From Isoetes taiwanensis (Eukaryota; Streptophyta; Lycopodiopsida; Isoetales; Isoetaceae), in the NCBI GenBank assembly GCA_021234155.1, contig JAJEKV010000002.1, positions 39,235,841 through 39,299,840 on the forward strand: a stretch of 64,000 nt of DNA. Direction: 5' to 3'. The position numbers and the translations under genes are program-made. Shown in pieces: positions 950-64,000 of the stretch (the first letter of the stretch is position 1; the number at the start of each line of letters is the position of its first letter). The notes below the pieces were generated by a model. It was given only the letters and a program-made list of their open reading frames with translations. It searched no databases and had not been told where the DNA came from.

Positions 950-2979
950 CGAAAGCCCGCAGGGAGGCTAGGTGCCTAGACCTCACATCCATAAAGGATA
1001 ACCATTTGGACAAGTGTTTTAACAATGTTCCCTTACGCGGCCAATTCCATAGCTCCATTTTGCTGCTCTAATTTTGAAGTGCACATAATGCCTTTAGGCC
1101 ATTGCTATATTGTTGCTCAATGCAGAGATCCCAACGGTAATTATTGCTTAAAGTAATCCCAAGATATTTGAAAGATGGCACATTTTCCAGGGGCATCCCT
1201 TTATGCAAGAATTCAGATTGAGAACAAGATCCAACTACTTAGTTTTTTATATATTCGCGGTCATTCTTGTTTGGTCACAAAACTTTGATAACATTTTAAA
1301 ATGCATCTCTAACCCCTTTTTACTGCGTGCCACCGTGGCTACATCATTAGCATAAAGTAAGAGTGAAATCACATAGCTCATCAAAGGAGCGTCAACTCCT
1401 TCATGAAACAATATCCAATCTTTTAGTTCATCTATGAAAATGCCAAACAGTATAGGAGATAGAGAGCATCCTTGTTTTACATCGATGCTGTTTCATTCTG
1501 GCCCATTTCAGTTTCTAACCAAGGGTGTGACAATTCCACTAGACTTTCTCATAAAGCATTTTAACAACCCCTTTAATATTAATAGGTACATTCAATGCGT
1601 TCATACGTTCCCATAATCTATCTCTTGGAACCATGTCAAAAGCTTTCTGAAAATCTACAAATGCCATAAAAATTGGTTTCTTCTTACCTTTGGCGCTGTG
1701 CACTATGGTCCTTACTGTGACTAGTTGATCTATTTTTGAATGTTTAGTTCTAAATCCCCCTTGTCCATGCACTTTCACTTCATTTTCCTCTGTCCAAGTG
1801 CTTAGCTTTCTTTCCACTATTGTTGCAAATAGTTTTGCCCATATGCTACTCATAAGTATGGTTCGATAGTTGCCAAGTATTGTTTTATCTTCGCTCTTAT
1901 GCACAGGCACTGTCCGATTACATTGCCATTCTTTTGGGAAACCTTGCTTCATCGCTTTATTAAACATCTTCATCACATACTAGACTACGCTATCTTCTAT
2001 CCATTTCAGTAATTCAGCCGCTAGTCCACACCTATCAAGTGCTTTGCCATTTGATAATTGTTGAATGCCATCCTTGACATCTGTACATGCGAAGAAAATT
2101 GGATCGGATGCATCTGGCAACTCCGTATTCATACATTGAGCTGTTCTTTATGATAAAGCCATTTCACATGCTCAAAAAGAGCCTCAGTTGGAAACTGCAT
2201 AGCTACTTCTTTTTTCGCCTCAGTTTGTTCCAGAATTTTTGCGGGTCTTGTACCCATTCATTTATCAAGGTCTCCTATCTAGATTTTATATATGCTCCCT
2301 TCTTCCTTCTGATTATGCCCCTTATATCTCTTTAGTTCTGTCAGCTTGTGCTCTTCTATTGCATTCAAAAATGTAGTGCATGCTTCTTTGCATTCATCAT
2401 CAAACCATGCATTATAAGATAAACCTTTTCGTGCTCTATTAGATTGAAAACATTCTTTGGCTGCTGAGATCATAGCATTTGTTAGCGTCGCACTCATTTT
2501 CTCAGTTGTCTCACATATTTTAACCAGGATGGATTTGAATCTATCTTTCTTCTGCCAATTCAAGAACATTTTTGGGTTTCTCTTAGTTTCTTGTACATGA
2601 ACTTTTTGCACTGTGATAGAGACAAATAATGGATGGTAGTCTGATTCTCCTCTCCCTTCTAGTATCTTGAATTCCTCTATTTGACCTACGAAATTCTCAC
2701 TGCAAATAAGGTAATCAACTACATTCTTTCCTTTGCATGTGCATATATCAGTGCCAAGGAACCATCGCATATACACAAATCAAAGCTAGAACACAAAGCC
2801 AATAAAGACTTACTCAATGCGGCCAAATCCCCCATATCGTTTGTCCGTGCTTGCATGCCTTTCGTTCTCCCATTAAAATCACCTATTAGCATGATATCTC
2901 CTTGTGCTGAGTATCTAAGTATGTCCTGTTCTAGATGGAAAAACGGCTCTGTTGGGTCCAGTTCCATTCTCATGTACAC
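950..2979 (-). pseudogene. Decayed non-LTR retrotransposon (LINE) ORF2: endonuclease and reverse transcriptase
   Basis: ORF2 encodes the enzyme for target-primed reverse transcription. Reading the minus strand, the piece at 2979-2719 has the endonuclease motif GDFNGR and the piece at 2776-2279 has VVDYLICSEN followed by ESDYHPL, the SDHxP-like active-site motif of apurinic-type endonucleases. The piece at 1976-1539 is the reverse transcriptase finger and palm: YRTILMSS, QGGFRTKHS and the first catalytic aspartate in FVDFQKAFD. Further down, in other frames, follow QDGCSLSPILFG, then LLYANDVAT (about 1345-1330) where YADD is expected, and KYLGITLSNNYRW (about 1175-1140), a thumb motif. The second catalytic aspartate of YADD is therefore Asn, and several frameshifts split the gene. 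It is a dead copy. RTE- or L1-like affiliation cannot be decided by eye. Confidence 0.8.
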
Positions 2980-3095
2980 TACCTAGTTAAGAAGAAGAAG
3001 CCATATAGAAGCCTAGGGGATGGGAAATCACATAAACTCTGACGCATTTCCAAGACAAAAAAGGAGACATTGACATCTAGGCCCATATGAATAGG

Positions 3096-3103
3096 ATTGG
3101 AGA
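3096..3103. repeat. Left target-site duplication of the hAT element (ATTGGAGA)
   Basis: The 8 bases ATTGGAGA sit directly before the CAGGGATA terminus and recur exactly after the right terminus at 12708-12715. An 8-bp duplication is the hallmark of hAT insertion. Confidence 0.93.
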
Positions 3104-3116
3104 CAGGGATAAGTTC
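3104..3116 (+). repeat. hAT left terminal inverted repeat
   Basis: CAGGGATAAGTTC starts the element. It matches the reverse complement of 12695-12707 at 12 of 13 positions and begins with the CAGGG typical of plant hAT ends. Confidence 0.9.
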
Positions 3117-3228
3117 AATACTGTATATGTTTTATACGTAATATATATTTTTCAAAAGATACGGCACAAATTTGACGTATAATACGTCAAAAATACGTCC
3201 AAAAACATTTCCGGCGTCGAAAAAAATT

Positions 3229-3478
3229 TGCGTAAGCGAAAACAACAGTTTCGCTTACGAGAAGATAGTTTCGCGTAAGCGAAACCGTTGTTTTCGCTTA
3301 TGCAAAGCGAGGAAATTTTTGCGTAAGCGAAAGCAACTGTTTCGCTTACGCAAAAATAGTTTCGCATACTGTTTTCGCTTACGCAAACTTTTTTAAACTT
3401 TGCGTAAGCGAAATCAAGAGTTTCGCTACCGCGAAAGTATCTTCGCGTAAGCGAAACTGTTGTTTTCGGTTACGCAAA
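3229..3478. repeat. Left subterminal motif array, GCGTAAGCGAAA in both orientations
   Basis: About a dozen copies (eight close to exact, the others with one or two changes) of CGTAAGCGAA or its complement TTCGCTTACG lie within 250 bp, often as head-to-head pairs able to fold into hairpins. The same motif forms the right subterminal array. In Ac-type hAT elements repeated subterminal motifs are the transposase binding sites, so these are inferred to be the binding sites of this family. Confidence 0.85.
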
Positions 3479-3596
3479 ATTTTACAAAGCATTTTAGGGC
3501 ATTTTGTTAAGGGAAAAAAAGTTTTTGCGCTACTGTCTGGTCTATTTTGAGCATGTGAATTATTATATATAAGAAGAATGTGTTTAGCCCTAGAAT

Positions 3597-3934
3597 TCAC
3601 CTCGAACGTTGACTACCAGGTCGAGTCAACATACTCCTTGGGAAATGGTCAGCCTTTGAGGGTTGGGTTTTGCGTTCGGGGCCTGACGCCGGAATATGTG
3701 AAGTGAGATTACTCCTTCACAAAGTTTTCCGACCTTGGGTTCCTACCCTATTCCTTAGAGACCTAAAGGTTCTTGTCTTTCCCTCCTTACGCTCGAACGA
3801 GACGTCGATGTAACATATGCGTAGTGAGCTTGCTCCTTCGCATATATAGACGTCGGCCTTTAGTTCGGACGATTAAGGAGTCTTTACCCTTTAGAATAGC
3901 AGAGCAGAGACAGTGATTTTAGATAGCAGCAGGG
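3597..3934 (+). promoter_or_regulatory. Transposase leader with serial hairpins
   Basis: The 340 bases before the transposase hold at least three short inverted repeats: GTTGACT with AGTCAAC near 3610, TGTGAAG with CTTCACA near 3698-3723, and ATATGCG with CGCATAT near 3816-3847. The last two share a GTGAG-TT-CTCCTT loop. This may be a structured 5' UTR or promoter. No function is proven, and no clear TATA box was chosen. Confidence 0.4.
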
Positions 3935-6473
3935 ATGGCAGCTGGGCACGCATCTACATCAGGCGGCGCTGGGGGCCATGCATCTACATCCCGTGCCGCC
4001 GGCGGTCATGCATCATCATCTAGGGGTGCGCGGCCGTCGCGCGGTCATGGCAGGGTCACGGGGGTTGCAGCAGCACGTGGAAGAATTGTATGTCGAAATA
4101 CTGGTGGTCGAAGGAGAGGTCCTGAGTGGGGATTTGTGAAGGAATTTGGCCAGAATGAGTGGCAATGTGTGTTTTGTGGGTACACGTTAATAAATGGATC
4201 TGCGACAAGAATACGAGCTCATCTTTTACGTGACTCTAAAATTGGGGTGCAAACTTGTACGGCATCTGCTGACATACGACAAGATGCAATTGAAGTGTTG
4301 GGTCTAAAAAAGAACTTCAGCAGAAAAACACAGCTAAGGGATAGTCAAGGACCTTCACCGTGCCAAGCAGAAGAGATCATTTACACCACCCCTCCTGCAG
4401 CGCCAATGTACCAACCAGAGGGTGGACTAAGGTCGATAGGAGGGTTAAGTAGGGCGCAAAAAGAATGGCAGAGACAATTGAAATAGTGGAAAGACAGACT
4501 AAGCAACAGAGGGTTGACCAATGCTTAACATCAGAGCAACTGAAGAAGACGCAATTGAAGGTTGTAGAGGCATTTTTATATACCGGATTGTCTCCACATG
4601 TCTTAGAACACAAAGTAATGAAAGAAGCCTTCCAAGAAGTTGCCAAAGCGGGGTCGGCTTTCAGGCTGCCATCATACAAGCATGCCAATAACAAAATGGT
4701 AGATGAAATACACGGGAAAATGGTGGAGAAGGTGGAGATGAAGTTGTGTCGTGTTACTGAAGCCAGGCCAGCTTCACTAGTGACTGATGGTTGGAGCAAT
4801 GTAAACAAGGACCACCTTATAAACTTTATGATCGTCTATCCAGGGGGCGAAGTATTTTTGAAGACCGTGGAAACTAAAACTGATCAGGTGACAGGAGATT
4901 GGATTTTTCAGAAAACAAAGGCTGTGATAGAGAGTTTTGGGCCGAAGAGAATATTTCAGGTCGTAATGGACAATGCGTCTAATTGTAAGTTAGCGGGTGA
5001 AATGTTGGGTCTGAATTTCCAGGATTGCACGCGACCAGCTGCCAATGCCATTGCCTAAACTTATTGCTCAAGGACTGGTTTTCACAGCACACTTGGTTCA
5101 AAGATCCCATTCAAAAGGCCCGTCATCTTGTGAAATTCATCACAAAGAAGCTGACAATTTATGCCAAGTCATTGCGTCAGAAGGCCCTAGCACTCATGAA
5201 TCCTGGTCAGACTCGGTTTGGTTCCAATTACATTTGTCTTGAAAGAGCGCTTAGGTGTCGCGACCCGATTATCTCGACCTTCAACCATACAGAGTTCTTT
5301 GAATGGGAGAGGAGGCAGAAGGGCAAAAATGCATCAAAACATCGGCAGCAAGCTGCTGCCCTTCGAGAAATGATTGGGCGGGAGACATTTTGGAAAGGCG
5401 TAAAGAATGTTGTCAAGTGCATGCAACCTGTTTGTCATGCCATCAAAACCCTTGATTCTTCGAAGGCAAGCACTGGAAAGGTCTGGAGGTGTTGGCACTC
5501 CATTCAATCCTTTCTAGAACGTGATGGCCCCAATGCACCATTTGATAATGCTAAGCACGCAACACTGTTCAGATGCTTCAATGAACGATGGAAGAAGTCC
5601 TACAATGATCTTCATGGCGCCGCACATGCCTTAGACCCACACAACCACGATATGGACCAGCATACAGATAAAGAAGTGATGGATTCATTGAAGAAGATTG
5701 CAAAAATGTATTATCCGAACAGCTCGGACTATAAGACCTTCATTGCCGAGTTAACTGAATACCAGAACTTGAGTGGAAGGTGGGCAAATGAAGAGCTTCA
5801 CGATGCACTGGAGAGTCATAAAAAGGAACCAAATATGGAATCCTATGCATGGTGGCAAGCCCATGGACAGGTTACTGATACGTTACAGGCCCTTGCAATG
5901 ACTATCCTCTCCTTGGTATCCTCCAATAGTGCAAGTGAGAGGAATTGGAGTGCTTATAAGTACATACACAGTGTCACACGAAATCGCCTGTTGCATAAGA
6001 AGGCTGACAAACTTGTATATAACTTCTCAAATTGGTGGCTTTTGAATCGCAACAGTGCAGATTCCGAAGTGGAAGAGGACAGCTTCAAAGACAGTGAGGA
6101 CGAGTTGCTTGCTGTAAATGCCGCTAACCATGTTGATGAGGACATTCAACATACCCATTTTGTCGATGCCGAAGATGATTTAGATAAGAACATGTTCTCG
6201 GACGACTCAGACGACAGCGAAGATACAGAAGAGGAGTCTGATGCAGAAAGGCCAGGTCCAAGTAATACAGGAGATCCGCTTGAGGACTTAACGGTACGTG
6301 ATCCAGCGGACTCTCCAATGCCAGTTACCCAGACAAACAGGCAACGTGTCAGAAGAAACACATCTCGAGGATGTTGCAGTAAGGGAAAGGGCCAGAGGAG
6401 GTTCAACCTAACCCTGCAGGCAGAAGAGGACGAAACTCTGGATGATGAAACTGATGAAGATGGTGCTGCCTAG
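3935..6473 (+). pseudogene. hAT transposase (BED finger, DUF659, hATC), two frameshifts
   Basis: The reading passes through three overlapping frames: 3935-4486, 4465-5058 and 5025-6473. The first begins with GHAST/S repeats and a basic stretch, then a BED-type finger (CVFCGY, a histidine in IRAHLL, a closing cysteine in VQTC). The second is the DUF659 part, with LVTDGWSNVNKDHLINF and VVMDNASNCKLAGEML carrying the conserved aspartates. The third begins at HCLNLLLKDW and ends with the hATC dimerisation block SNSASERNWSAYKYIHS and KLVYNFSNWWLL, then an acidic tail rich in Asp and Glu. DUF659 flows into HCLNLLLKD across a one-base loss near 5045, and the first two frames join across a shift near 4465-4486. 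All domains are otherwise complete, so the copy is young or recently broken. ATG at 3935 is the first in frame after the leader. An AATAAA lies 36 bases after the stop. Confidence 0.9.
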
Positions 6474-6508
6474 AAAAATGATGTGATTGTAACTGTGCTG
6501 GCACTATT

Positions 6509-6514
6509 AATAAA
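6509..6514 (+). terminator. Polyadenylation signal AATAAA of the transposase gene
   Basis: A canonical AATAAA lies 36 bases after the transposase stop codon in an AT-rich stretch, the right place for transcript 3' end formation. Confidence 0.55.
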
Positions 6515-6881
6515 AAGTAAAGTTTTTTGTTATAAGTTTTTGTCTTCTGTATATTTCGTTACCGTGTTCTATGTTTCTTTCATGTATGATGATTTAGGGT
6601 CATTTCAACAATTTGTAACTTCGTTCGGTGTTTCATTCATGTGTAACCCCAGTCGACATTGCCTAGAGAAACCTCGCCGTGTTCCATTACCTCCATCGAC
6701 CATAGTATCTTCTGAACCCTCCTCGGATCAGATCCGTCTCGACTTCCGTTGCTGCTTGCCTCTTCGCATGCCACAGAATCTTGCTGATGAGAAGTAATCT
6801 ACGCATGCCAAGGGGCCAAACAGCCACGGACCAGTTGGGACGAATCTGATGCTGAAGAGGGTTCATAAGGTACATGATCCA

Positions 6882-7125
6882 CATCGTCCCATCCACTGGA
6901 TAGGTAAGACGTATCTCCAGTACGCCAAATTGGCATTTGAATGCTATCAGGACCCTATACCTGTACTCCATTCTTTTGGGTGGCACATGCTCTACATACC
7001 TAATGGGTTTATATGGCAGGTGCCACCTAAAGGAATGGAGGTACAGATACACGATCCCGATGGCATTCAAACGCACATTTGGCATATCGGAGTTACGTCT
7101 TACCTATCCAGTGGACGGGACAATG
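6882..7125. repeat. Long imperfect hairpin, about 105-bp arms, inside the hAT element
   Basis: The arm at 6882-6986 (starting CATCGTCCCATCCACTGG) pairs with the complement of 7020-7125 (ending CCAGTGGACGGGACAATG), with a loop of about 33 bases and scattered mismatches. Read as RNA it would form a long stem resembling an inverted-repeat small-RNA precursor. It could also be a nested foldback element, but no flanking duplication was found. Confidence 0.75.
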
Positions 7126-7142
7126 GAACAAGTGATATCAGA

Positions 7143-7230
7143 GTGAAAGCATCGAGACTTCCCAAATCTTGCTTTCACGCTACATTGCCCAAAGAGGCGG
7201 GGAAAGAAAGATTGAGAAGTCTCGATGCTT
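7143..7230. repeat. Second hairpin in the hAT element
   Basis: AAGCATCGAGACTTCCCAAA at 7147 onward pairs with the complement of AAGATTGAGAAGTCTCGATG ending at 7230. A smaller inverted repeat (GTGAAAGC at 7143 and GCTTTCAC at 7171) overlaps it, so two alternative folds are possible. It lies 20 bp after the longer hairpin. Confidence 0.65.
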
Positions 7231-8253
7231 GAATTCATCAATCACTAATCTCTAATGAACCCACAAAATCGCAAGCAACCACTAGGCGGATATCATCCGT
7301 GGCCACAATAAAAATAGAGTACTCAAAAACCTTGTTACCTCCGTCCTTGTACAATCCACCACGACGCCAAAGGGGACGCGTCCTCTAATTTCAAGTCACA
7401 GTGCTGCTGGAGGTTCTCCATCAATAGCAAGAGTTAGGATATTCCATGATTTGGTGCCTAACAGCCGCTATATAGATGGACAAAGCCCAGGCACCACTTT
7501 GGCTTGAAATTAGGGTACGCTCTCACCTCTGACGTCATAGCAACTTGCATACGAGAACTTTTACCTCTAGAACGAACGATTTTTGCTCCAGATCCCATTT
7601 GGGGTTTTTTTGTGTAATATAACCTAGCAAAGTAACTAAACCACATTGACACAGAGAGACTCCAAAAGAGAGCCAGAACAAAGCTCGCTCTTTCTAAAGG
7701 AGGTAACAAGAATTTCAAGAAGTCTATATTGTTTGCCACGGAGAATATCAAGCCTGGTGAACTGACAACCATTCAAGAGGGTCACGCTCCAGGCTTACTC
7801 CCTTTTCGAGTTTCCTGCTTGATATATCTAAATCGCCACCTAAAATGAGTGAGCGACCTCATCCTAGAGGGCAATTTTGATACATCAAATAGGACAAACA
7901 AAAGAGACTAAGCCAGGGTGAAAGAGATGACAGTTAGTCCACTAATCCTAATTGGCATCTGTCCCTCTACATCAGGCCCTTCTTTTCAGTGATCACCATG
8001 GTTTTAACAACTATGATGTTCAAAGAAAAGAAGGCCTGACATGAGGTCCAGATGTCAAATATGTTGCGTGTGCAGATGATTTGACTCACTCACATACTTA
8101 ACTATTACACAAACAACTCAATGCGGCAACCCAACCCCCAAAATTTTATTAAGACAACAAATCCTCGTCAACGAACGTTGGTTCATTCATGTGCATCTGA
8201 GATCTTAGGAAAAAATATCAAAAAAATAATGTAGATAGCAGTGTATTCGAAGC
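7231..8253. other. hAT internal spacer with a third inverted repeat at about 7970-8043
   Basis: No protein-like frame is seen on either strand. CATCAGGCCCTTCTTTTC near 7971 faces GAAAAGAAGGCCTGACATG near 8024, forming an imperfect stem of about 18 bp with a loop of roughly 35 bases. The stretch may contain the promoter of the kinase gene, but no convincing promoter element was found. Confidence 0.45.
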
Positions 8254-8523
8254 TCATGGGTTTAAGTAATCGTCCTGATCCTCCACCACCACGTTTGCAC
8301 CAGGATTCACCCAATCACCTGTTGGCCCAGGAGCGGGAGGCAGGTACTTGTTAATGTCTGGTACCTCCTCACCTTCACGCGGTTCTTCCACCTCCCTCCA
8401 AAGGTCCATTTCACGTTGGGTATGGAATGCGTGAGCCATTCCGTCCCTCCTGCGAGCAATCAGAGGTGGCATGGGGGGGGCATGCGTGATTGCATGTTGA
8501 GCACGGCATACTGGAACTCTCAT
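8254..8523 (-). CDS. Short acidic, proline-rich ORF of unknown function in the hAT element
   Basis: An 89-codon frame runs toward the transposase and overlaps the kinase start by two bases. It reads like the end of a real protein: a basic start, then acidic and proline-rich text (EEVPDINKYLPPAPGPTG) and a C-terminus DDYLNP. No upstream exon was found on the minus strand because the kinase gene occupies it. It may be a divergently transcribed fourth gene, an exon remnant, or chance. I do not recognise the family. Confidence 0.3.
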   Translation of the reverse strand: MRVPVCRAQHAITHAPPMPPLIARRRDGMAHAFHTQREMDLWREVEEPREGEEVPDINKYLPPAPGPTGDWVNPGANVVVEDQDDYLNP

Positions 8524-9920
8524 GAAAGATGCTGAGAGAGTTTTTGGGCCTCGAATGATAGAGCTAGAACCTGAAAAGATTGATTCTGAAAGGTATGCTT
8601 GGATAGATGGGAATGTATCTCGTACAACTGGAAATATGATTCATGCGGTGGCAAATTTAACTAGACCGCAGAGTGCCTAAAAGATAAGGCTGTGGAATGG
8701 AATACAGCTTGGACGAATCGAAAGCTTAGAAAGGAAACCCATCAACCCCCTCATCTAATTAAGAAAGTTTTGGTACAGACTATTAGAGCCAAGCGTCCTG
8801 GTGAGACTGATAAAGAGTGGGAAAAAAGAAAAAGGGTAGATGCCAAGACTATATGGTTTGCAATGGTGGATTCCTCTCAGATAATCAACAGGACTAGAAT
8901 TGGTTCGGGAACAGATAGAACGGTGTTCAAATGCAATATCTTGGATTCTAGTTTTCTTAAAGACGAACCCTATTGTGTTAAATTTCAGAATGATGATGTC
9001 CGATTAGGTACGGCGAGGCCTGATGTGATAGTAAAGGCCATGATGAAAAACATGAGGGAGTCGCAAATGCAGGTTAGACATGGCTCTATCATACGCTGCA
9101 TTGGTCATACAACTGGGTTAGAAAGAACAGGGTTGATATTTCCTTACTGGAATGGGGGTTCTTGTGCATCTCTTTTTGTGCATCATGGAGATAATGAGTT
9201 TGCGAGGCATGCATTTCAAAGATTAGGGTATAAGCCTAGTGTCGAGGTCGACGTCCATAAGCTTGAGCAACGGAGGAAGCAAGAGTTATATGTTGCTCAA
9301 AGAGTGGGTGATCTAACTATGTCGTTTTTAAGCGGCTTGCTTAAGCTTCATAAAGAGCACCATTTACACATGGACTTGCACCCGGGCAATGTCTTGCTTC
9401 ATTTTGACTTTGGGAAAGAGAGAGGATGCACGGACCCCCAGGCTATTTATATTGGTATATGTGATTGGGGAGAAGAAAGGCTAATAGGTGAGCTTGTGGA
9501 AGTGAAGCGGTGGGCATACAAAGGCATGGATGGTGCTGCCAAAAAGACGATTGAGAATGAAAGACTTGCCTATCCATACATGCATGATGATTTGTATTGG
9601 GGTCCAAAAAGAGATGGAACTAAGATGGTGCCTGCAAGGGTAGATTTCGACCTTTTAGGGGCAGCCTACTTTATCTATTACCTTGCTGATTTTGCACGCA
9701 GGCATTCTTTCTTGGAGGCTATGGGTACCACTGAACAAAGCCAGAGGTTTCGAAACATGTGCAATTATTTGAAGCACTGTGTCGAATCCCAATACGAGAC
9801 AAGGCACGCAAGTTTGATCTGAACCAGCTACTGAACACCATGCGGAGCACTTGGAATTGCTCTCCAACACATTGCACAAGACCCCAAATGGAATCAGATT
9901 GGATTCCTCAAGTTGGATAG
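8522..9920 (+). pseudogene. Divergent protein kinase carried by the hAT element, two frameshifts
   Basis: The main frame (8692-9822) has the marks of an active-type kinase fold: a glycine loop IGSGTDRTVFKC (residues 70-81 counted from 8692), the ATP lysine in YCVKF (K97), a catalytic loop HMDLHPGNVL with Asp228 and Asn233, and a metal loop ICDWGEE where DWG stands for DFG. HMD replaces the usual HRD. The reading clearly extends at both ends in other frames: 8522 onward gives MKDAERVFGPRMIELEP, joining near 8677, and after about 9790 a shifted frame gives KFDLNQLLNTMRSTW and stops at 9918-9920. One-base losses at these two points would explain both. The protein would be about 465 residues, with no membrane segment. 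It may phosphorylate the transposase or host factors, but that is speculation. It lies downstream of the transposase on the same strand and was probably expressed separately. Confidence 0.8.
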
Positions 9921-10196
9921 GTGCAGACGATGCTGATCAAGCTAGACCAAGTCACGCTTAGCGTGCCATTTATGAGCTCTCTTGTATGCAACCAAAAAAA
10001 TTTATTGATTGAACAATTGCTTTAGACACATTTAATAAAACATCTTTGGCATTCTTATATATTTATTTTTGTTGCACTTGATTTTTTTTATAATTTATAA
10101 GTCATATTGAGTAGTTTTTTATTTTGCGTAGTTAACAACATAAAGCGTATATGCAAGTTAACGAACAAACAAGTTACCTAGTGCCAAACAAAAAGA

Positions 10197-11156
10197 ATGT
10201 CTCAACAACCGAGTTCGTCTCATCAGCAAGATACTATTTCTCGTCAGACGAGAGAAGGGGCTGATGAAACTGGGCAAGGAGCCAACTTATCCTTGCCGTC
10301 CTCTTTGAGAACTCCAGATGGCTTTGTATTCCCTTCTCTACCTACATTGTCGGAGATTAGGGCACAACAGCTATAGAGAGCAAAGGAACATGCTAGAATA
10401 AATGAAGCGCGTGCAAAAGAGCTGTTGAGGTTGAGGGCAATGGCAGAAGTGGCCAAGAAAGAAGGTGTCACAATTACAGAGGTGCATGGAGTTGCATGTG
10501 ACATGAGCCCAGGTTGTTGCCCGCATGGAGCGGATTATGAGGATATCGAGGCCAATATAGACGCCAAACAGTTTGACGTCGACTGGCCAAGCAGGAGAGC
10601 AGGTAAGTATAAGGCATATGACTGCAAGATCCCTGAAGTCTGAGCTAAAGCTTTGGAGAGGTGGGTCCAAGTGAAAGGAACGATGATAAAAAACCATGAA
10701 TTCAGCAAGACGTTTGCCAAGCAAGTGTACTATGAGATTGTGAAAGGGGAGCCCGTAAATTATGCTAGTAGAAAATGGAAACAAGGAAGCGGTAGTGGTA
10801 GCAGCAAGAGAGTGAAGCTCGCGAACGATTCTGAAAGCGCTCTTGGTGATGAAACCGTGACTATAATCTATTTGCTTCAAGATGCCATAAAACTTTTAGA
10901 TGTGGCGGGGGTTGCAGCAGCAGGTGCAGTGACAGAAAAGGTGGATCAGTTAGAGAATGAAAGAAGTCGAAATCTTACTCTGTCGAATCAACTTGCAGCT
11001 TTGGGTAGGGAAAACGCGCATCCTTCGTCTGTTGTAGTAATCAACTCTAACTCAGATGGGGTGGCGGCGCATATTCGCTCACAGAGCCAATTCATCAAAG
11101 CAGGTCTTAAAGAAGACCATAGCTGTTGGGGTCTTGATCTTTTCCTCTGCATCTGA
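10197..11156 (+). pseudogene. Third hAT cargo gene, unknown nuclear-type protein, two in-frame stops
   Basis: One frame runs from ATG at 10197 to a stop ending at 11156 (about 319 codons) and is broken only by TAG at 10374-10376 and TGA at 10641-10643. The absence of any frameshift over 960 bp suggests a gene that was coding until recently. The N-terminus is Gln/Ser-rich. A helical Ala/Lys/Arg stretch (AKEHARINEARAKELLRLR) follows, then a Cys/His-containing segment (CDMSPGCCPHGADYED), a Lys/Arg patch (SSKRVKLANDSE) that could be a nuclear signal, and a coiled-coil-like tail (VDQLENERSRNLTLSNQL). I recognise no family. It follows the kinase by about 280 bp, same strand. It might be an accessory DNA-binding or regulatory protein of the transposon, by analogy with TnpA-like partners in other plant elements; that is inference only. 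Confidence 0.55.
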
Positions 11157-11332
11157 GTAGAGGACTCGGCCTCTGGGTTCATGTGCGGCTCTGCTTCTAG
11201 CCTAGGTCCTTCTTTGGGGCTCATGTGAGGCTCTGCTTCTAGTTTAAGTCCTTCTAACTCTTGTGGATTCATAGCAGCTTTAGAAGAAACTGTGTAGCTA
11301 GCAATATGCCAACAGTAGCAAAGCAGGAACAA
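10988..11332 (-). CDS. ORF with a 39-bp repeat, antisense to the third cargo gene, doubtful
   Basis: A 114-codon minus-strand frame converges on the third cargo gene. Its centre repeats LEAEPHM twice (LKLEAEPHMSPKEG and RLEAEPHMNPE), from a 39-bp tandem duplication near 11180-11260. The repeat alone can keep the frame open. It could be an acidic peptide exon, but the overlap with the plus-strand gene makes coding use doubtful. Confidence 0.2.
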   Translation of the reverse strand: MFLLCYCWHIASYTVSSKAAMNPQELEGLKLEAEPHMSPKEGPRLEAEPHMNPEAESSTQMQRKRSRPQQLWSSLRPALMNWLCERICAATPSELELITTTDEGCAFSLPKAAS

Positions 11333-11339
11333 TACCTAA

Positions 11340-12393
11340 ATGTCTGGGGGAAAAAAAAACCCACTTTAGTGAGTGTCAATAAGCTGTGAAATAGTTCATT
11401 AAGATTCTAGTAAACTACTGAGCTTCAAGTTTGACGGTTAAACCCTAAACCCTACTAAATTTCAAGTTGACGGTTATAGGCACCCTATGGTTAATCTACT
11501 GAGTTTGACGGTTCACGGTTATAGGAAATGCATTTTTCTCATTCTCTTCAACAAGTTTAACTTATGATCTGACCCAGCTACTGACTCCATGAGGAAACTC
11601 CCTCATAGAGGTTGGCACTCAACTGCATTTGACCGCCTGGCAAACTCACGAATATTTAATGAAATATACGCCAATCCCTATATTAGTGTTGGACTTTCGT
11701 CAACAACACCGTCAGAGAATAGGGTATATCTCATTAAAATATCCTTCTGACCTTCTTTAAGAGTACAACACCCACCTTTCGAAACCGCATGACCGAAGCC
11801 AACAAGCTGCACCAGGAGAGGGCTATACACCTCGATGAAAGGTTGACCCTAGCAATCCTCGACATCAGCAATGACACCCACCCTCGGCATGGCACAATTC
11901 AATATGGTACACCAGGCGAGGATCACTGCCGAAACTCTAAAACCTAATCTCTCTTAATCAACTCCCTAACTGCTACATTTGTCGATAAAAAGAGAGGGCA
12001 ACTAAATTTCTAATTCTTATTTTTTTCTTTTGTTTTTCTTTTATTGTTTTTTTTTCTCGTTATTTTATTGTTTCTGTTTTATTGTTTCTCTTTCTTTTTT
12101 TCTCATTATTTTCTCTACGAAAATCAGTCTGGATTCGTCCATAGAACAAGACGCTCACCATCGTCACGCCCCCCGATGGAGGGGGGCAACAGACAAGGGC
12201 CTCACTATGGAGGAACCCTAGACCTACTATAAAAGAAACAACAACAAAAAACTAACTAAGTTTGGCTAGAAACTAAGAAAAAAGTAAAAAAAAAAAGGCA
12301 AAGGGGCACAGGTTGTGGAGCAGGGCGCAGAAGGTTTACCTTGTTCTGCGCAAAAAAACTGAAACAGCGTCTCGTTATATATAAAAAAAAAAA
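11340..12393. other. hAT right interior: no gene; partial echo of the kinase 3' end; pyrimidine tract
   Basis: Near 11566-11600 the text resembles the end of the kinase gene around 9818-9850 (both read close to TGATCTGAMCCAGCTACTGA), suggesting a duplicated kinase tail. Nearby, ACGGTT-type short repeats occur at 11430-11525. A T/C-rich tract spans about 12015-12115. No protein-like frame is seen. Confidence 0.4.
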
Positions 12394-12589
12394 TTCGCGT
12401 AAGCGAAAACTACTGTTTTGCTTACGCGAAAACCCTTTCCCGTAAGCGAAACCTTCAAAACAGCTTACCCGAACAAAAAAAAGTTTCGCGTAAGCGAAAC
12501 CTAAAAGTTTCGCGTAAGCGAAAATTAAGCTTTCGCTTACGCTAAAAGATTTTCGCGTAAGCGAACCTGAAGGTTTCGCTTACGCGAAT
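12394..12589. repeat. Right subterminal motif array, GCGTAAGCGAAA in both orientations
   Basis: About nine copies of the left-end motif occur in both orientations, such as TTTCGCGTAAGCGAAACC and GGTTTCGCTTACGCG. They show that the left and right ends belong to one element and are the likely transposase binding sites. Confidence 0.85.
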
Positions 12590-12694
12590 TTTTTTTTTTC
12601 GGCCGGCAGGTTAAAAATACGAAAAATATGTATTTAACCTAAAAATATGTATTTTTTGACTTTATATGTCTGGAAAAATAATTTCGTACGTACA

Positions 12695-12707
12695 GAACCT
12701 ATCCCTG
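12695..12707 (-). repeat. hAT right terminal inverted repeat
   Basis: GAACCTATCCCTG is the inverted partner of the left end, with a single mismatch over 13 bases. Past these bases the match weakens, as usual for the short hAT repeats. Confidence 0.9.
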
Positions 12708-12715
12708 ATTGGAGA
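12708..12715. repeat. Right target-site duplication of the hAT element (ATTGGAGA)
   Basis: An exact copy of 3096-3103 directly follows the right terminus. Confidence 0.93.
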
Positions 12716-14057
12716 GACGCTGTGATGGACGCCATATAGGATCCTGATGCAATTTTCTTCATAACTTCTAGCTCGAGTGTCAGATTCGGGTGTTTTTTAG
12801 TGAATTGGAAGGCTAGAACCCTCGGTGTGTAGCCCATATAGTGATGATGGGCCTAGCTGGGCTAGATTTGGAGTTTACAAATTTTAGCCATCATGGAAAA
12901 TCCTAGTTTGCCAGCTTGTGGATCATGTTTGAAAGCAAAGAAAGTGGTAGGTGATGCTTTTGCTTCTTCTTTTACACATGATATGAATTCTCCTTTGCTG
13001 TCTGAGTCTATATCATCAGCCTCTTTTAATGAGGATCAACATTCTCCTCTTCAGGACATTGCTTACAAGCAAGAATTATTGGAAGTATGATGGTCTACTC
13101 TATGTATGAAAAAGCTTACACGTTGTAAGAATAGATCAGCTCCTCATGCTGCTCTAATTCACTCTGTAGCTCCAATTTCTACTATGATTGTTGTAGTGGA
13201 TGTCCCTAATTTAGTGGCATTGAGACACCAAGTAGCAGATCAAGTTGCGGTTTTGATTTATGGATGTAGAACTTTGATCTGGTTAAACTTATCCGTTTTG
13301 AATATATAATTATATATTATTCTTCTGTCTCTAGGAAAAGAAAGTAGTATGATTTGCATTATACTGTCATGCCTAGACGAGCAGCCCTGCTCAGTTGGAT
13401 CTGTATTGTATTATGTATTATTATCGAGCATTATTAATAAAGTCTGACGTCCTTAAGAAAAATCCAAGGCAAAAGACAACATGAATGAAGAAGAGAAATT
13501 TTTCGAAGGGATTTACTGTTTACAGCCATAAAATTAGAAATTAGTGGATGTAATGGATAAGACAAGTTCATATTAAACACATATGATGTAGCAGGCCATG
13601 TGGATAGGCTAAAATTCAAGGAATACCTAAGAAAAGGCAAGTCTGCTAATCATAATCGTATGCAATGTAATTATAATACTATTGGCACATGGGGCGTAAT
13701 TCAATAAAAGCCCAATATATATTCTACAGAAAGTCTTTATGGTCTGTTAAGTTTTATAGAAAACCTTTGTTACTCTCGCCCCTTTGACTTTGTCACTCTC
13801 GCCCCTTGGATGTAAAAGCCGTATACGCTTTTCATATGATTGCAATGATTTTCTATCGAGATAATACAAATTTCCTCACAGTGATTATAATCATCCTCTG
13901 TGCCTTTGTCCCCTCCTTTACGAATATGTAGAAAAAGAACAGGGGGTTCCAGGGGGATTTGATATGGATGTAAAAAATAACAATTCCGGAAACCATAGAC
14001 CATATATCCCTAAAACAATTGAATGGGTTATTATAAAAAAAAAATAAAATAAAATAA

Positions 14058-21582: not shown

Positions 21583-24500
21583 CTAAAATGAGCCACCTGT
21601 AATGCTACTAATATTCACTTCCATACCCATCGCCTTTCTCACAATTGGATCACTCTCGGACAAGATATCAATGTCTTTGTTTAATTGGATGTTGGAAGAC
21701 TCCATTGCAGAAACAGACACAACTGGATCAACAGAAGAAACTACCTGACCTGAAGGTATCTCGACAATAGAAGACTGCTTAATACACCATTGATAGCAGA
21801 ACTAATAGTACCTATTTTGGTACTCTTAGTACTAAAATAGGTACTCTTAGACTGCTTAGTACCTATTTTGGTTTGCTGAATTGCAGGATCTAACACCAAC
21901 ATGTAGACTGCTTAATACACCATTGATAGCAGAACTAAGAGTACCTATTTTGGTTTTCTGAATTGCAGGATCTGACACCATTTTGGTTTGCTGCACTGCA
22001 GAATCTGACAGAATGATATCCCTAAGGCCAATTCCATCACGGTCCAGCTCATCTAGCTTTTCCAACTCCTTAGAGTACACATCCTGATACATTTGCCTCT
22101 GCCCATTATCATCAAATGGTTTACTTAACACATACATAGCACATTTTGCTTCCACTTCCTTGTTCTTGTCATATCTAGAAACAAAAGAAAATTACAAGTT
22201 AGAAACATAATGAAGAAAACTTAGAAACATAACTAAGAAAAAAAGTTCCTACTATATGCCTCTGTTATCCTTTGTCCTGTAACGCGCATCCCAACATTTT
22301 GTGGAACCCCAGCCCGAACCATTCTAGAAATGGCAGTAGTACGACCAGACTTACCCGAAAACTTTCCTTCCATACCAATTATTTTCAACATATACTTCAT
22401 CCAGCTAGCTAACTTTCTTGCATTAACCCAGTTGACTGAATTATACCATACATTTCCTCTATGATTAACATTCGGCTGCATAAAACAGAATGGAGAAGCA
22501 ACTGTCCCATTATCATTAGGCTTTGGATTATGTAAATGCCTTAACAGCTGCCTATAAGTCAAAACTACATCAGCCTCATAACATTTACAAGCCAATCTAA
22601 CTTGTTCTTCTTGGTAATGATTCATGTCCGCGTCGTAATTCTTACTAGTTTGCTCATCATATTCCAAGTACTCACTAGCATTTTCTGTTCCAACACAAGA
22701 ATCTGACATTACCAACAAATGAAGCTTCTTTTGACCACGAATCGCAAAATCTAGAAACACAACAGTACAAAAACCTGCCCATTCAGGAAAAAAAAAAAAC
22801 CTGTCCTATGTATAAAGCTGTGCCAATCTGACAGGTTCTCTTCAGCAGATCCAAACCAAAAGGCAACTTGATATCTATTTTCCTAATATGCTTTGTGAAA
22901 GCTATGGCATCTGCTTCTGCTTTCAGCACTTCATCCTTTTTGAGTCTAGCAAGCAAAATAAATGATTCCTTACTCAAGGGAGCAATAGTACCCAGATTTT
23001 TGCTGTTCCAAAGTGTTTGTCCAAACTGCTCCCCATGGATTTCTACATTTCTGTTAGACATAATAGGAAAAGCCCCACAATTGAAAAAATTAAGTTCTTT
23101 GAGACTATACTGATCCAGCATATCCCTAATCTTGCAGTCCTCATCCATATCAGTATTAATTACAGGATCAGCAGCAGAATTATTTGTTTCAGTGGCACTG
23201 TCCCCCAACCCATCCATATCAAAGAGGCAATTGTCAACAGAAGTAGGCTGGGCCATCTTTTCAACAGTATCAGGTTTGGCATTTTGGGGAAAGGATAAAG
23301 GCTTAATGTTATTCTGAATTTCAAGGACATTGAGGCCTTTAATAAAAGCAAGCATGTCTCTAATATCCTGTCTATCTTCAGCCATATGAAAACCAGGAAG
23401 CTTATTATAGGTATCAACAATAAGATCATGACAAACCTCAGCCTTAGCATTTTTGAACCCTGAAACAAGCTCGAGCATCTTGTTGAACCCCAAAAACAGA
23501 ATGGCAGAAATCTCACCTTCAACAAGTGAGCACTCCTTACAAATGAGCAGATTATGTATTTCCTGGTTTCTGATGCATGCCAGAACTGTTTGTACTGCTT
23601 TATTAGGTGCAATGATGCCTGCAGCAGCATAACCCAAGCTTGCCAACTCCGGATACCAATCAGGTCTATTTCCATATGTATTTTGATAATTCGTCTGCTG
23701 ACTGTTTCCATTGATGTTGAAGATATAGCGCAGGTTAGAATTACCTTCCTGAAACCAACAGAAATTTAGAGATATATAAAGAAAAGACCATAAGCTTAAA
23801 GACCATACAAAGGAAAACAGGTTATCCCTAAGGCCCACTCTGGTAAAACCAGAGATTTGAAATAGGGTATATATACTAAACCAAACAAATCCTCATGACT
23901 TGTCAAGTAATCCAAATCATTCTTAACTAACTAACAAGAAGATTGGACTTATCAGACCCCAAACGGGGAGGCCTTAGGGATTTTTAAATTGCCATAGTAC
24001 AAAAAAGAACAAAGCATATATACTACAACCTAGGGTTGCTTTAGACTGTAGAAAATACTTGCAAACAAGACTAAACCAGGAAGGAAATATCATTAAGGCG
24101 ATGAGATTTTCAGAAATACATTTTATTCAAGTGTAATAACCAAATTTAAACAAAAAAGGAAACTCAAGCTGAAAGAATTGTAAAACAACAACAGGCAAGC
24201 TGCACTACATAAGGTAAACAGTCAAAATAAGGGACAAAAAACCAGAAAATTTTTTTTAAGGGGCAAAGGAGATGTAAATCATACCAACTCATATACTATC
24301 CACTATTAAAGACAAGAAAAGACCAAGAATAAAACCAAGGGAATACTGAATTTGCATTAATAATAATAATATGTAAATGTTTAAAGAGAAAGATAGAGAA
24401 TACCATATGTTCCAACCACTGCTGTAAGAGATCCAATAAGAGTTCCAACAGAATTCTTACCATGAAGATTAAAACAAATTACAAGTGTTCATATCCGCAA

Positions 24501-45417: not shown

Positions 45418-45795
45418 GAGGCTATTGTTCTGCCTCCAGCACCAATGGGAAGTATGTCTTCCTCTTTGAAGGAAGATCTTGAGGCCATTGTTCTGCCTCC
45501 AACACCAATGGGAAGTATGTCTTCCTCTTTGAAGGAAGAACTTGAGGCCACTGTTCTGCCTCCAGCACCAATGGGGAGTATGTCTTCCTCTTTGAAGGAA
45601 GATCTTGAGGCCAACTGCTACGCCTCCAAAGACCAATGCTAAGTATGTCTTCCTCTTTGAAGGAAGATCTTGAGGCCAAATTACGCCTCAAAGACCAATG
45701 GGAAGTATGTCTTCCTCTTTGAAGGAAGATCTTGAGGCCACTGTTCTGCCTCCAACACCATTGGGATCCTCTTTGAAGGAAGATCTAGCTGCTGT
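45418..45795. repeat. 63-bp coding minisatellite, about six copies
   Basis: Units begin at 45418, 45481, 45544, 45607, 45672 and 45734. The first three are exactly 63 bp and encode 21 residues, E-A-IVLPPAPMGSMSSSLKEDL. Later ones carry two-base gains or a one-base loss and leave the frame. The array separates the two-module ORF from the DUF4283 ORF. Confidence 0.95.
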
Positions 45796-45809
45796 ATCCC
45801 TTCGTAGAG

Positions 45810-47234
45810 ATGGCGAACCGGATTTGCCACCTTGATAATCAAGCTTTGATTGTTAAAATAATAAGAGGTAATCCCTCTTTACCTGAGCTTAAGAAGACCA
45901 TAGAGCGTATCTGTCGGGGCAGAATCCTACCCCGTATTCAGCCTCTTGATAATCTATACTTCCTCATTACTCTTCAGTCTGATAGAGAGGCCTCAACTCT
46001 CTTCAAGAAAGGGATTCTCACATGTCCAAATGGCCAGATTCTGCTTCAAAAGTGGCAGCCAGGCTTTAACCCTCATAAGCCAGAAGCTTTGTTTTATCCT
46101 ATCTGGCTTTCCCTCTCAGATCTTAGTGCCGAGTATTGGACTGAGAAGGCATTCAAAGCCATTGCCTCTTGTCGAGGAGAGTTTATATGCATGGGAGGGA
46201 CAACCATCGAAGCTCCAAAGATTTGTATCTCTGTTGATACCTTCAAGCTGCTCCCAGAATCTGTTTTTTTCCATAGCTTTGACAACAAGCTCACTGAGTT
46301 TAAACTCTCCATTTCTGGCATGCCTCTTCCATGCTCTATATGCGGAGCCAATGTGCATTCAGGAGTGCTTTGTACCAATTCCCAGTTACCTCCTAAGCTG
46401 GGGCCTGACATGAAAGGGAAAGAGACATTTGATGGGAATGTAGACTTCGAAAAATCCATGCTCCTTAGTTCTGCCATAAAAAAGGCTGTTGTCCACCTCT
46501 GTGAAAGCTCCAAGGGAGGCAGCTCTGGACAAAATAGACATGGGCAAACTATCCAAGCTGACATTGCATCAATCTCCACTGTATCTATTGATCTGACTGC
46601 AATCCAGCCCTCTGTAAGTGTCGCTTATGCTCCTAACAGACCAGTGCCTCTGTCCGTCCATTCCCAAAACAGATATGCTCCTTTGGTTGGGATTGAGAAG
46701 CCCACCTCTCCGCCGGCCTTGATCAACACACATCTGGTCTGCTCTTCTGATAGAGACTGCTCTTTGGAGGCGGCTGATAATCACAAAGAACACCCCAAGA
46801 TGATTTCAGATCATCTCCAGAAGGTAGATCACGGCTCTATTGCTTCCACTGGTTCTAGTCTTCATATCAGCGCCATCAGCTCTTTTCTCCATACCCGAGA
46901 TGGCCCTATCTCACCCAAGGGCATTCATCAAGACCGAGATGGCCCTATCTCTCCCAAGGGCATCCAGCAAGATTGTGCCAGTACTCCGCATCTGGCATTT
47001 GGTACTTCTGAAAATGGTTCCAAGTCTGCTGGACCAGCAGCACCCAAGGTTTGTGATGCCATTGTGAATGGCGAAATGGATAAGGTTGGGGATGGCTTCA
47101 AATCCTCTGAGCCGGCAACTATTGAAGGTGAAATGATGGAGGCCTCTCAAGCAGGTAGACGCTTGCCTCTTCGTAAGCCTCTGTTGGAAAAAAGAAGAAA
47201 AACTTACTACAGAAGCACGATAAACAGGGTTTGA
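45810..47234 (+). CDS. LINE ORF1-type protein: DUF4283 domain and zinc knuckle
   Basis: DUF4283/zinc-knuckle proteins are the nucleic-acid-binding ORF1 of plant L1-type LINEs; they coat the element's RNA. The 474-residue frame has an N-terminal DUF4283-like region (about 1-175) with LYFLITLQSDREASTLFKKG, QILLQKWQPGFNPHK and FYPIWLSLSDLSAEYW. A knuckle CSICGANVHSGVLC (C-x2-C-x4-H-x4-C, about residues 176-189) follows. The rest is low complexity, with a duplicated 13-residue DGPISPKGIHQDR from a 39-bp repeat at 46897-46974, and a basic end, LRKPLLEKRRKTYYR. ATG at 45810 lies at the start of the domain. No endonuclease/reverse transcriptase ORF2 follows within several kb, so the element is truncated or the ORF was captured alone. 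The frame is intact. Confidence 0.7.
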   Translation: MANRICHLDNQALIVKIIRGNPSLPELKKTIERICRGRILPRIQPLDNLYFLITLQSDREASTLFKKGILTCPNGQILLQKWQPGFNPHKPEALFYPIWLSLSDLSAEYWTEKAFKAIASCRGEFICMGGTTIEAPKICISVDTFKLLPESVFFHSFDNKLTEFKLSISGMPLPCSICGANVHSGVLCTNSQLPPKLGPDMKGKETFDGNVDFEKSMLLSSAIKKAVVHLCESSKGGSSGQNRHGQTIQADIASISTVSIDLTAIQPSVSVAYAPNRPVPLSVHSQNRYAPLVGIEKPTSPPALINTHLVCSSDRDCSLEAADNHKEHPKMISDHLQKVDHGSIASTGSSLHISAISSFLHTRDGPISPKGIHQDRDGPISPKGIQQDCASTPHLAFGTSENGSKSAGPAAPKVCDAIVNGEMDKVGDGFKSSEPATIEGEMMEASQAGRRLPLRKPLLEKRRKTYYRSTINRV

Positions 47235-63500: not shown

Positions 63501-64000
63501 TACTCCGATCTACTCTCGGGCTTTTCCCACTCGCCCACATAGATGCAGGCATTACCCCTGCATTTGTGCCCGTCATACCACGGGGACTGCTCCTATTCCC
63601 GCGGCCCCACACACTTTTTTGCCTTTTTTCCATTTGAGGGCCCAGCATTTCATGCTTTGCATTGCTTTCAATCTCAGCCATTTTGTTTTGGTCCCTTGGC
63701 CAATGCGCTACATCTTCTCTTCTTTGACATTTATGTCAGATTGCCTTCCGATTCTCCTCTTACGGATGATGCGGTACGGAGGGTAAGATTTTGGTCATTG
63801 ATTATTCTGGCGACCCCATCAGCCGGGCTGGTTTTGGTTTGGAGGTCTATGGTGTATTTTAGATCTTGCCCAGCGTTGGTGCAGGAATGGCCCGCGTCTT
63901 ATTTAGGTTCGGTTGCGGTTGTTCCTCTGCCTTGTTGCGTGTTGCGTTTCTCATGCCGGGGTTGGAGATCACGAGTTATACTCGTTTTCCTCCGTTTTCT
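54546..64000. other. No recognisable gene in 9.5 kb
   Basis: Open frames up to about 150 codons exist (for example 54644-55090 and 58291-58650) but overlap each other on both strands and show no domain, membrane pattern or splice-consistent continuation. The last 2 kb (62040-64000) is T-rich on this strand. No tRNA, rRNA or retroelement protein was seen. Confidence 0.35.

Follow-up and report, generated by a model that had tools for sequence, protein, structure and literature searches.

The window analysed here, a stretch of 64,000 bases from the genome of the quillwort Isoetes taiwanensis (C1018:39235841-39299840), contains a DNA transposon of the hAT superfamily at positions 3104-12707 (9604 bases; Table 1). 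Its ends lie exactly where a preliminary description of this DNA, made from the letters alone, had placed them. The element is flanked by an exact 8-bp target site duplication (ATTGGAGA) and bounded by terminal inverted repeats (TIRs) of 13 bp each, which match at 12 of 13 positions (CAGGGATAAGTTC and CAGGGATAGGTTC); similar repeat arrays lie inside both ends. An exact 8-bp duplication, and short TIRs plus subterminal repeats at both ends, are hallmarks of hAT elements. A search of the whole window for CAGGGATARGTTC with zero mismatches returned two sites, both of them the TIRs of the element, and all 26 matches to the array motif TTCGCGTAAGCGAA (up to two mismatches) fall within the two arrays, with 0.24 matches expected. 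The stretch 3104-12707 is a genuine hAT element. Between its ends lie a transposase gene, a protein kinase gene and a third gene, which encodes a RING-finger protein and is also called the RING gene below; the latter two are referred to together as the cargo.

Table 1. Features of the hAT element in the window, and subterminal arrays at two loci of a second subfamily (coordinates within those loci)
Feature	Position	Strand	Basis
Target site duplication ATTGGAGA, left copy	3096..3103		sequence read
Left terminal inverted repeat (End A) CAGGGATAAGTTC	3104..3116	+	motif search
Left subterminal array, TTCGCGTAAGCGAA-type motifs	3227..3478		motif count
hAT transposase gene, broken	3935..6473	+	Pfam, reading frames; start codon by eye
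Intergenic stretch, between convergent genes in other copies	6474..8253		copy comparison
RING gene (third gene), C-terminal end, original orientation kept	8254..8514	-	copy comparison
Inversion junction 1, 6 bases fitting both sides (against C1075 and C1038)	8515..8520		alignment
Kinase gene without N-terminus, inverted, frameshifted, open piece 8665-9822	8515..9962	+	right end by eye
RING gene, 5' part, inverted, RING domain absent	10197..11018	+	frames, alignment to C1075
Inversion junction 2	11018..11019		alignment to C1075
Kinase N-terminal codons (MNPQEL...), original orientation kept	11019..11272	-	copy comparison
Right subterminal array, TTCGCGTAAGCGAA-type motifs	12394..12588		motif count
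Right terminal inverted repeat (End B) CAGGGATAGGTTC	12695..12707	-	motif search
Target site duplication ATTGGAGA, right copy	12708..12715		sequence read
Group-2 subterminal arrays	L059 2453-2700; L054+L055 (reverse complement) 13167-13394		motif comparison

The transposase gene consists of three open pieces (3923-4486, 4453-5058 and 5001-6473). Its assignment to the hAT superfamily was borne out by two domains that score above their Pfam cut-offs, DUF659 (67.5 bits, cut-off 34.7, E = 1.3e-18) and Dimer_Tnp_hAT (36.2 bits, cut-off 21.4, E = 5.2e-9). A zf-BED match at the N-terminus is weak (11.9 bits, cut-off 20.6, E = 0.24), and the sequence match to the Hermes structures spans the C-terminal region only. 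The transposase frame is also broken in C1075, the copy used below for most comparisons, and one place in the genome contains a stop-free frame of 766 amino acids (aa) that spans nearly the whole transposase query.

The preliminary description had proposed that the kinase and one other gene travel within a hAT element, and had suggested that other copies be sought through both ends. We searched the complete assembly (1,658,258,908 bases, 1110 contigs) with each end and each gene; the resulting counts of scored places include the window and are all lower bounds. End A (3104-3250) yielded at least 40 places among 1166 candidates, End B (12590-12707) at least 40 among 1388, the transposase at least 87 among 2308, the kinase at least 107 among 1541, and the third gene at least 150 among 1034. 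The positional counts exclude matches that were second pieces of a place already listed, 3 out of 110 for the kinase and 8 out of 95 for the transposase. Five copies besides the window, all belonging to the subfamily termed group 1 below, were studied (C1075, C1018b, C908, C1038 and C1047). In four of them, and in the window, both ends enclose the transposase, the third gene and the kinase; C1047 shows End A and the genes, and its right end was not found within the 14 kb examined. The four complete copies measure 10,269 (C1075), about 10,273 (C1018b), 10,459 (C908) and 9,389 bases (C1038). Exact 8-bp duplications flank C1075 (ACTTTTGT), C1018b (ACATGAAA, where the right TIR was taken to lack one base) and C908 (GTGTCTGG), and the duplication of C1038 matches at six of eight positions (TCTTCAAC/TCTTCATG). 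Counting the window copy, five insertions arose independently, each at a target site of its own, and the kinase and the third gene belong to the element family. The search thus recovered the cargo between both ends at independent sites with different 8-bp duplications, and produced neither ends that always lack the cargo nor a cargo block bounded by a target duplication of its own. Chance or artefact as the source of the element is ruled out by the ends, the arrays, the genome copies and their duplications.

The copies also define the layout of the family. The cargo block is opposite in strand to the transposase in all five other group-1 copies, and cargo and flank are colinear with C1075 up to End B in C1038, C1018b and C908. 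Among the matches listed, cargo lies within 15 kb of the transposase at 40 of 87 places, downstream of it in all 40 and convergent with it in 39; the sole same-strand pair is that of the window, and in seven of the 40 pairs the kinase has less than 74% identity. Similarly, cargo is present within 20 kb of End A at 15 of 40 places among the matches listed, in opposite sense at 14 of the 15. The order is canonical at all seven third-gene loci examined, and the 5' junction of the kinase is uninverted at 26 of 29 other loci, inverted at none and uninformative at three (the 29 take in the places of C1075, C1038 and C1047).

Three reduced relatives were seen besides these copies. One (L007, 1501-3098) is an End A copy that has lost the transposase; pieces of its third gene remain, canonically oriented. 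A second, a derivative of 740 bases (L054+L055, reverse complement, 4077-4816), has both ends but is too short for the genes; it has an exact duplication (CCATGCAT) and seems to lie inside a Copia-like frame beside a copy of group 2, the second subfamily. The matches to End A and End B point to a third, of 726 bases and likewise too short for the genes (G000:C1018:30846013-30846738).

The window copy departs from the canonical layout by an inversion of about 2.5 kb (8515-11018), as read from its alignment to C1075. Window positions 8423-8520 correspond to 7026-7121 of C1075, 8515-10984 to 10016 down to 7521, 10985-11018 to 7448 down to 7415, and 11019 onward to 10032 onward. Missing relative to C1075 are 293 bases that include the RING domain, plus 15 bases at the other breakpoint. 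The six bases that fit both sides, together with the bases lost at the junctions, would be the mark of end-joining repair. We found the inverted order in no other locus examined, and because the kinase copy closest to that of the window (L026, synonymous divergence (dS) 0.033) is uninverted, the inversion is recent, and private among the loci examined. The inversion splits both cargo reading frames, and it accounts for the minus-strand frames at 8254-8514 and 11019-11272, which contain the ends cut off from the third gene and the kinase, respectively. The 5' part of the RING gene is in addition interrupted by two stop codons in frame, one before 10377 and the other at 10641-10643, and 72 bp that are present in C1075 are missing from it at 10984/10985. 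The window copy is dead and internally rearranged.

It is also because the cargo block is inverted that all genes lie on one strand in the window, an arrangement that the preliminary description had taken for a feature of the element and that is peculiar to this copy, given that 39 of the 40 placed transposase/cargo pairs are convergent. Its overall interpretation therefore survives for the family, which does carry the kinase and the third gene, and not for gene order and strand in the window, which are derived by inversion. The impression that all genes are damaged to a similar small degree holds in part, the kinase N-terminus and the RING domain having been lost at the inversion junctions. 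The intergenic stretch of the window contains an 85-bp inverted repeat of 82% identity (6882-6966 and 7041-7125), and intergenic DNA near it has two matches each in C1075 and C908.

The kinase frame of C1075 is 621 aa from stop to stop, or about 590 aa from the likely first methionine. It scores 33.3 bits against Pkinase, above the cut-off of 31.7, and the window piece scores 26.4, below it. The catalytic loops reported earlier from the window are present: among the scorable copies of the 35 compared, the catalytic lysine is conserved in 33 of 33, the aspartate in 33 of 34, the asparagine in 34 of 34 and the aspartate of the DWG motif in 33 of 33. The glycine loop of the window kinase is mutated (IGSGTDRTVF). 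In the protein database, 7995 scored candidates included one clear relative, P0001, and three weak ones with 25-27% identity. P0001 (580 aa, from ENA, longest contig 4196 bases) is 43% identical over 85% of the kinase and has a similar N-terminal extension and like catalytic motifs. A scan of bacterial and archaeal genomes with the kinase alignment gave 90 stretches, with one weak match of 30% in a metagenome-assembled genome. A viral origin of the kinase was also considered and rejected, as the corresponding scan of viral contigs gave 31 pattern stretches, none of them a relative.

The third coding-type frame proved to be a real gene that encodes a RING-finger protein, of which the window copy has lost the RING domain. 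Its frame in C1075 is 448 aa long and lacks the first 35 or so residues, giving a total of about 480 aa by comparison with the window start at 10197. The C1075 protein exceeds the cut-off for zf-C3HC4 (23.7 bits, cut-off 21) and falls below that for zf-RING_2 (25.4 bits, cut-off 27.3); in C1038, zf-C3HC4 scores 20.9, just below the cut-off of 21. The best sequence match among solved structures is an E3 ubiquitin ligase (6f98, E = 0.0035). Among scorable copies, the first seven ligand positions of the RING are conserved as C (25/26), C (24/25), C (18/18), H (17/17), H (16/16), C (14/14) and C (13/13). The protein also features a KRVKL stretch resembling a nuclear localisation signal and a probable coiled coil, both read by eye. 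No relatives of the third gene were found among 7998 (single sequence) and 7997 (alignment) scored protein-database candidates, and an NCBIfam scan gave no match near a cut-off.

The kinase matches listed can be divided at 74% identity into group 1 (at or above the line, 59 of 107) and group 2 (below it, 48 of 107); we set this line ourselves, and it is blurred by decayed copies. Five group-2 loci were sampled (C1028, C1007, C1049, C941 and C919). C1028 and C1007 contain the transposase and the RING gene in the same convergent order as group 1. C1049 contains the RING gene, the kinase and End B, with no transposase within the 14 kb examined; to the left of its genes is a Copia-like frame (by eye), which seems to hold a short group-1 derivative. 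C941 has a kinase with a Helitron beside it, and the C919 stretch has a RING gene and no transposase was seen there. For the kinase and the RING gene, synonymous divergence between the groups either reaches 2.4-3.1 or is too large to estimate, whereas the transposase piece gives only 0.38 and 0.49. Nucleotide identity of group 2 to C1075 varies along the element. In the transposase it is 70% for the N-terminal part, 90-91% for DUF659, 84-85% for the middle, 88% for the dimerisation domain and 72% for the C-tail; it is 84-96% in intergenic DNA, 66-68% in the RING gene and 69% in the kinase. Intergenic DNA is thus more alike between the subfamilies than are the cargo genes, and this mosaic suggests that transposase core and intergenic DNA have been exchanged between them.

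The two groups also differ in their subterminal arrays. At the termini examined, the repeat differs by one base, being TTCGCGTAAGCGAA in group 1 and the palindrome TTCGCGTACGCGAA in group 2: all six group-1 elements contain the TAAG type only, and the arrays of the two group-2 loci with termini examined contain the TACG type only. A single TAAG motif in C1049 falls within the short group-1 derivative there. The BED domains of Hermes bind the subterminal repeats of its left end (excerpts of PMC10368747), so that a matching change in the N-terminal DNA-binding part of the transposase would be expected. The new observation is that the cargo diverges in parallel with the subterminal motif, as read at two group-2 termini. 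Judged by sequence divergence, these are two old subfamilies, both of which keep the kinase and the RING gene. The Helitron beside a group-2 kinase is represented by a frame of 1417 aa without stops (L056, 4046-8296, plus strand) with Pfam matches to Helitron_like_N (1.8e-34) and PIF1 (6.4e-49), and is possibly young.

We compared nonsynonymous with synonymous divergence (dN/dS) pairwise by the Nei-Gojobori method among de-duplicated copies of the kinase (35), the RING gene (30) and the transposase (8). Left out were the reference row, rows from places already sampled (up to five per gene: REF, L011, L021, L035, L043 and L005), and any copy or pair that fell short of 100 or 80 scorable codons, respectively; stop and gap codons were skipped, as were codons touching insertions in the between-group comparison. 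L042 and L044 were also left out of the kinase tree, in which the young copy C1075 has a terminal branch of 0.002. With dS below 0.1, between 0.1 and 0.3, between 0.3 and 0.6, and above 1, the median dN/dS is 0.42, 0.26, 0.20 and roughly 0.09 for the kinase, and 0.54, 0.31, 0.23 and roughly 0.09 for the RING gene (35 and 23 pairs, respectively, in the highest class). For the transposase it is 0.30 (dS 0.1-0.3) and 0.15 (dS 0.3-0.6). Frame controls, made before de-duplication at dS 0.1-0.4, gave 0.25, 0.31 and 0.24 in the right frame and 0.90-2.04 in other frames. The exception among the wrong frames is the mirror frame -1 (0.30-0.42), which shares third positions with the right frame. All three genes are under purifying selection along the propagating lineage, and the higher ratios among the youngest pairs are as expected from decay of the copies after insertion.

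The family shares with the hAT superfamily (Ac, Hermes, Tol2 and Tgf2) the 8-bp duplication, short TIRs, arrays of short subterminal repeats, and the DUF659 and hAT dimerisation domains. To our knowledge, these elements are known for a transposase alone, and hAT transposons have been taken to need one protein; the quillwort elements, 9.4-10.5 kb long, encode a kinase and a RING protein in addition. Pack-TYPE elements, including Pack-hAT, are likewise DNA transposons with TIRs and host-like coding cargo, and excerpts of a published account describe them as non-autonomous carriers of captured gene pieces (PMC8903248). In contrast, the quillwort family has a transposase gene in all five both-end copies (broken in the window), and its cargo is long-framed, long copied with the element and under purifying selection. 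With a transposase gene in the element and C1075 cargo frames of 621 aa and 448 aa, it is not a Pack-TYPE family.

The nearest precedent in its way of working would be the VANDAL elements of Arabidopsis, Mutator-like DNA transposons that also have three genes (VANA, VANB and VANC; PMC5735166). In excerpts of the same source, the VANDAL transposase is much more conserved than the accessory protein, which targets non-coding repeat motifs that change between families, and VANC undoes silencing via family-specific motifs (PMC5735166, PMC10398659, both in excerpt). However, VANDAL elements combine a Mutator-type transposase with a DUF1985/DUF287 anti-silencing protein, and the quillwort family, known from sequence, has a hAT transposase, a kinase and a RING protein. 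It does not belong to VANDAL: its transposase has hAT domains, and Pfam scans (E up to 1) of pieces of the three proteins gave no VANDAL domains. None of the titles and abstract beginnings surveyed in the open-access literature reports a hAT element that bears a kinase or a RING gene, which is a weak negative. Words starting with hAT are absent from the main texts of the two Isoetes genome papers (one being PMC8566536), and neither kinase nor hAT occurs in a 2026 review on plant gene capture. The family is therefore best described as hAT elements with two added genes, without counterpart in the literature surveyed.

Our preferred explanation, to which we assign a probability of about 0.72, is that the window holds a dead, rearranged copy of a large three-protein hAT family whose kinase and RING protein serve the transposon as accessory factors. 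As a rule, elements of this family (9.4-10.5 kb in the four other complete copies) code for three proteins. The transposase gene points inward from End A; convergent with it on the opposite strand, and pointing inward from End B, come the kinase (about 590 aa) and then the RING protein (about 480 aa). The latter is probably a RING-type ubiquitin ligase, and the two accessory proteins may regulate how active the transposase is or how fast it is turned over, or may target host proteins that hold the element in check or silence it. Kinase, RING protein, the N-terminal part of the transposase and the subterminal motif may form a specificity set that differs between subfamilies, with the catalytic core held in common. 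Accessory proteins are known beside the transposase of other DNA transposons, as with MuDR-B, VANB and VANC.

Several observations weigh against this explanation. No cargo is listed near 47 of the 87 transposase places or near 25 of the 40 places with End A, and relatives that carry a transposase only may exist, the match lists being lower bounds. Group 2 is represented by five loci, with transposase and RING gene in two and kinase, RING gene and End B in one, and the motif difference between the subfamilies is based on two group-2 termini. The ligands of the RING domain could be scored in no more than 13-26 of 30 copies. The domain has no Cys or His as the customary eighth ligand, so that full zinc binding is uncertain; an aspartate four residues past the seventh ligand is invariant (14 of 14 scorable). 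The dN/dS of 0.09 is rough because dS above 1 is saturated, and pairs without computable dS were left out. The non-coding control, run under the same conditions as the frame controls, gave 0.57-0.83 and not 1, so that the neutral yardstick here lies below 1. Finally, AlphaFold models from two runs of five sequences each (the window piece and P0001-P0004) were too poor for use (mean pLDDT, the predicted local distance difference test, 44.1 and 40.0).

A more specific alternative, which we regard as tentative, is that the kinase and the RING protein form a system for licensing or for countering silencing that is tied to the subterminal motif of the element itself, the subfamilies having become separate recognition groups through the one-base change from TTCGCGTAAGCGAA to TTCGCGTACGCGAA in their arrays. 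The motif change would then be coupled to the N-terminal part of the transposase, the RING gene and the kinase, with the transposase core exchanged by recombination. Such a system would be an analogue of VANC that arose separately in hAT elements and acts via phosphorylation and ubiquitination.

It is unlikely that the cargo was instead kept because it benefits the plant, for example in defence, with selection acting on host fitness. Kinases and RING proteins are common among plant signalling proteins, and several copies have stop-free frames of 550-621 aa, both of which would suit a host function. However, the copies decay after insertion, as seen in the medians of the closest pairs (0.42 for the kinase, 0.54 for the RING gene), and selection is visible mainly along the propagating lineage, which is what element-level selection predicts. 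Slightly less credit still goes to passive capture, in which two host genes were picked up as in Pack-TYPE elements and hitch-hike, their coding appearance being a leftover from the host. The capture of gene pieces is known for plant DNA transposons including hATs (excerpts of PMC8903248), but the cargo here consists of long uninterrupted frames beside a transposase. Passive capture fits badly above all because dN/dS is about 0.09 at saturated dS (>1) between subfamilies that both carry the cargo; a passenger would have drifted.

A separate mobile element comprising the kinase and the third gene and nested in the hAT element is very improbable: the orientation of the block in the window does differ from that in other copies, but its edges there are deletion and microhomology junctions with no duplication of their own, C1038, C1018b and C908 are colinear with C1075 to End B, and the group-2 loci keep the order. 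That the window order is ancestral and the convergent order derived can be dismissed almost entirely, as we found no evidence in its support, the window is the only non-convergent case among the 40 placed pairs, its closest kinase copy is uninverted, and the inversion splits both frames.

Elsewhere in the window, LINE-like (long interspersed nuclear element) endonuclease frames, recognised by eye, lie just left of the hAT insertion (2279-2982, minus strand); Pfam gave no match on 2279-2779. Two overlapping frames at 22233-23892 (minus strand) look tyrosine-recombinase-like by eye and have no Pfam match. An open frame of 481 aa with a DUF4283 domain (4e-15) occupies 45789-47234 on the plus strand, and the last 2 kb of the window (62001-64000) show a very strong AT skew of -0.414.

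For genome annotation, the family carries a warning: kinase and RING reading frames of this sort, which belong to a transposon, may end up in the tally of plant genes. The retention of the kinase and the RING protein in many copies, through saturated synonymous divergence, indicates that these proteins matter to the element. The switch of motif between the subfamilies offers a ready test of how the recognition code of a transposon may change across many repeats. More broadly, the family provides a testable case, in a lycophyte, of a cut-and-paste transposon that may control itself or its host by phosphorylation and ubiquitination.

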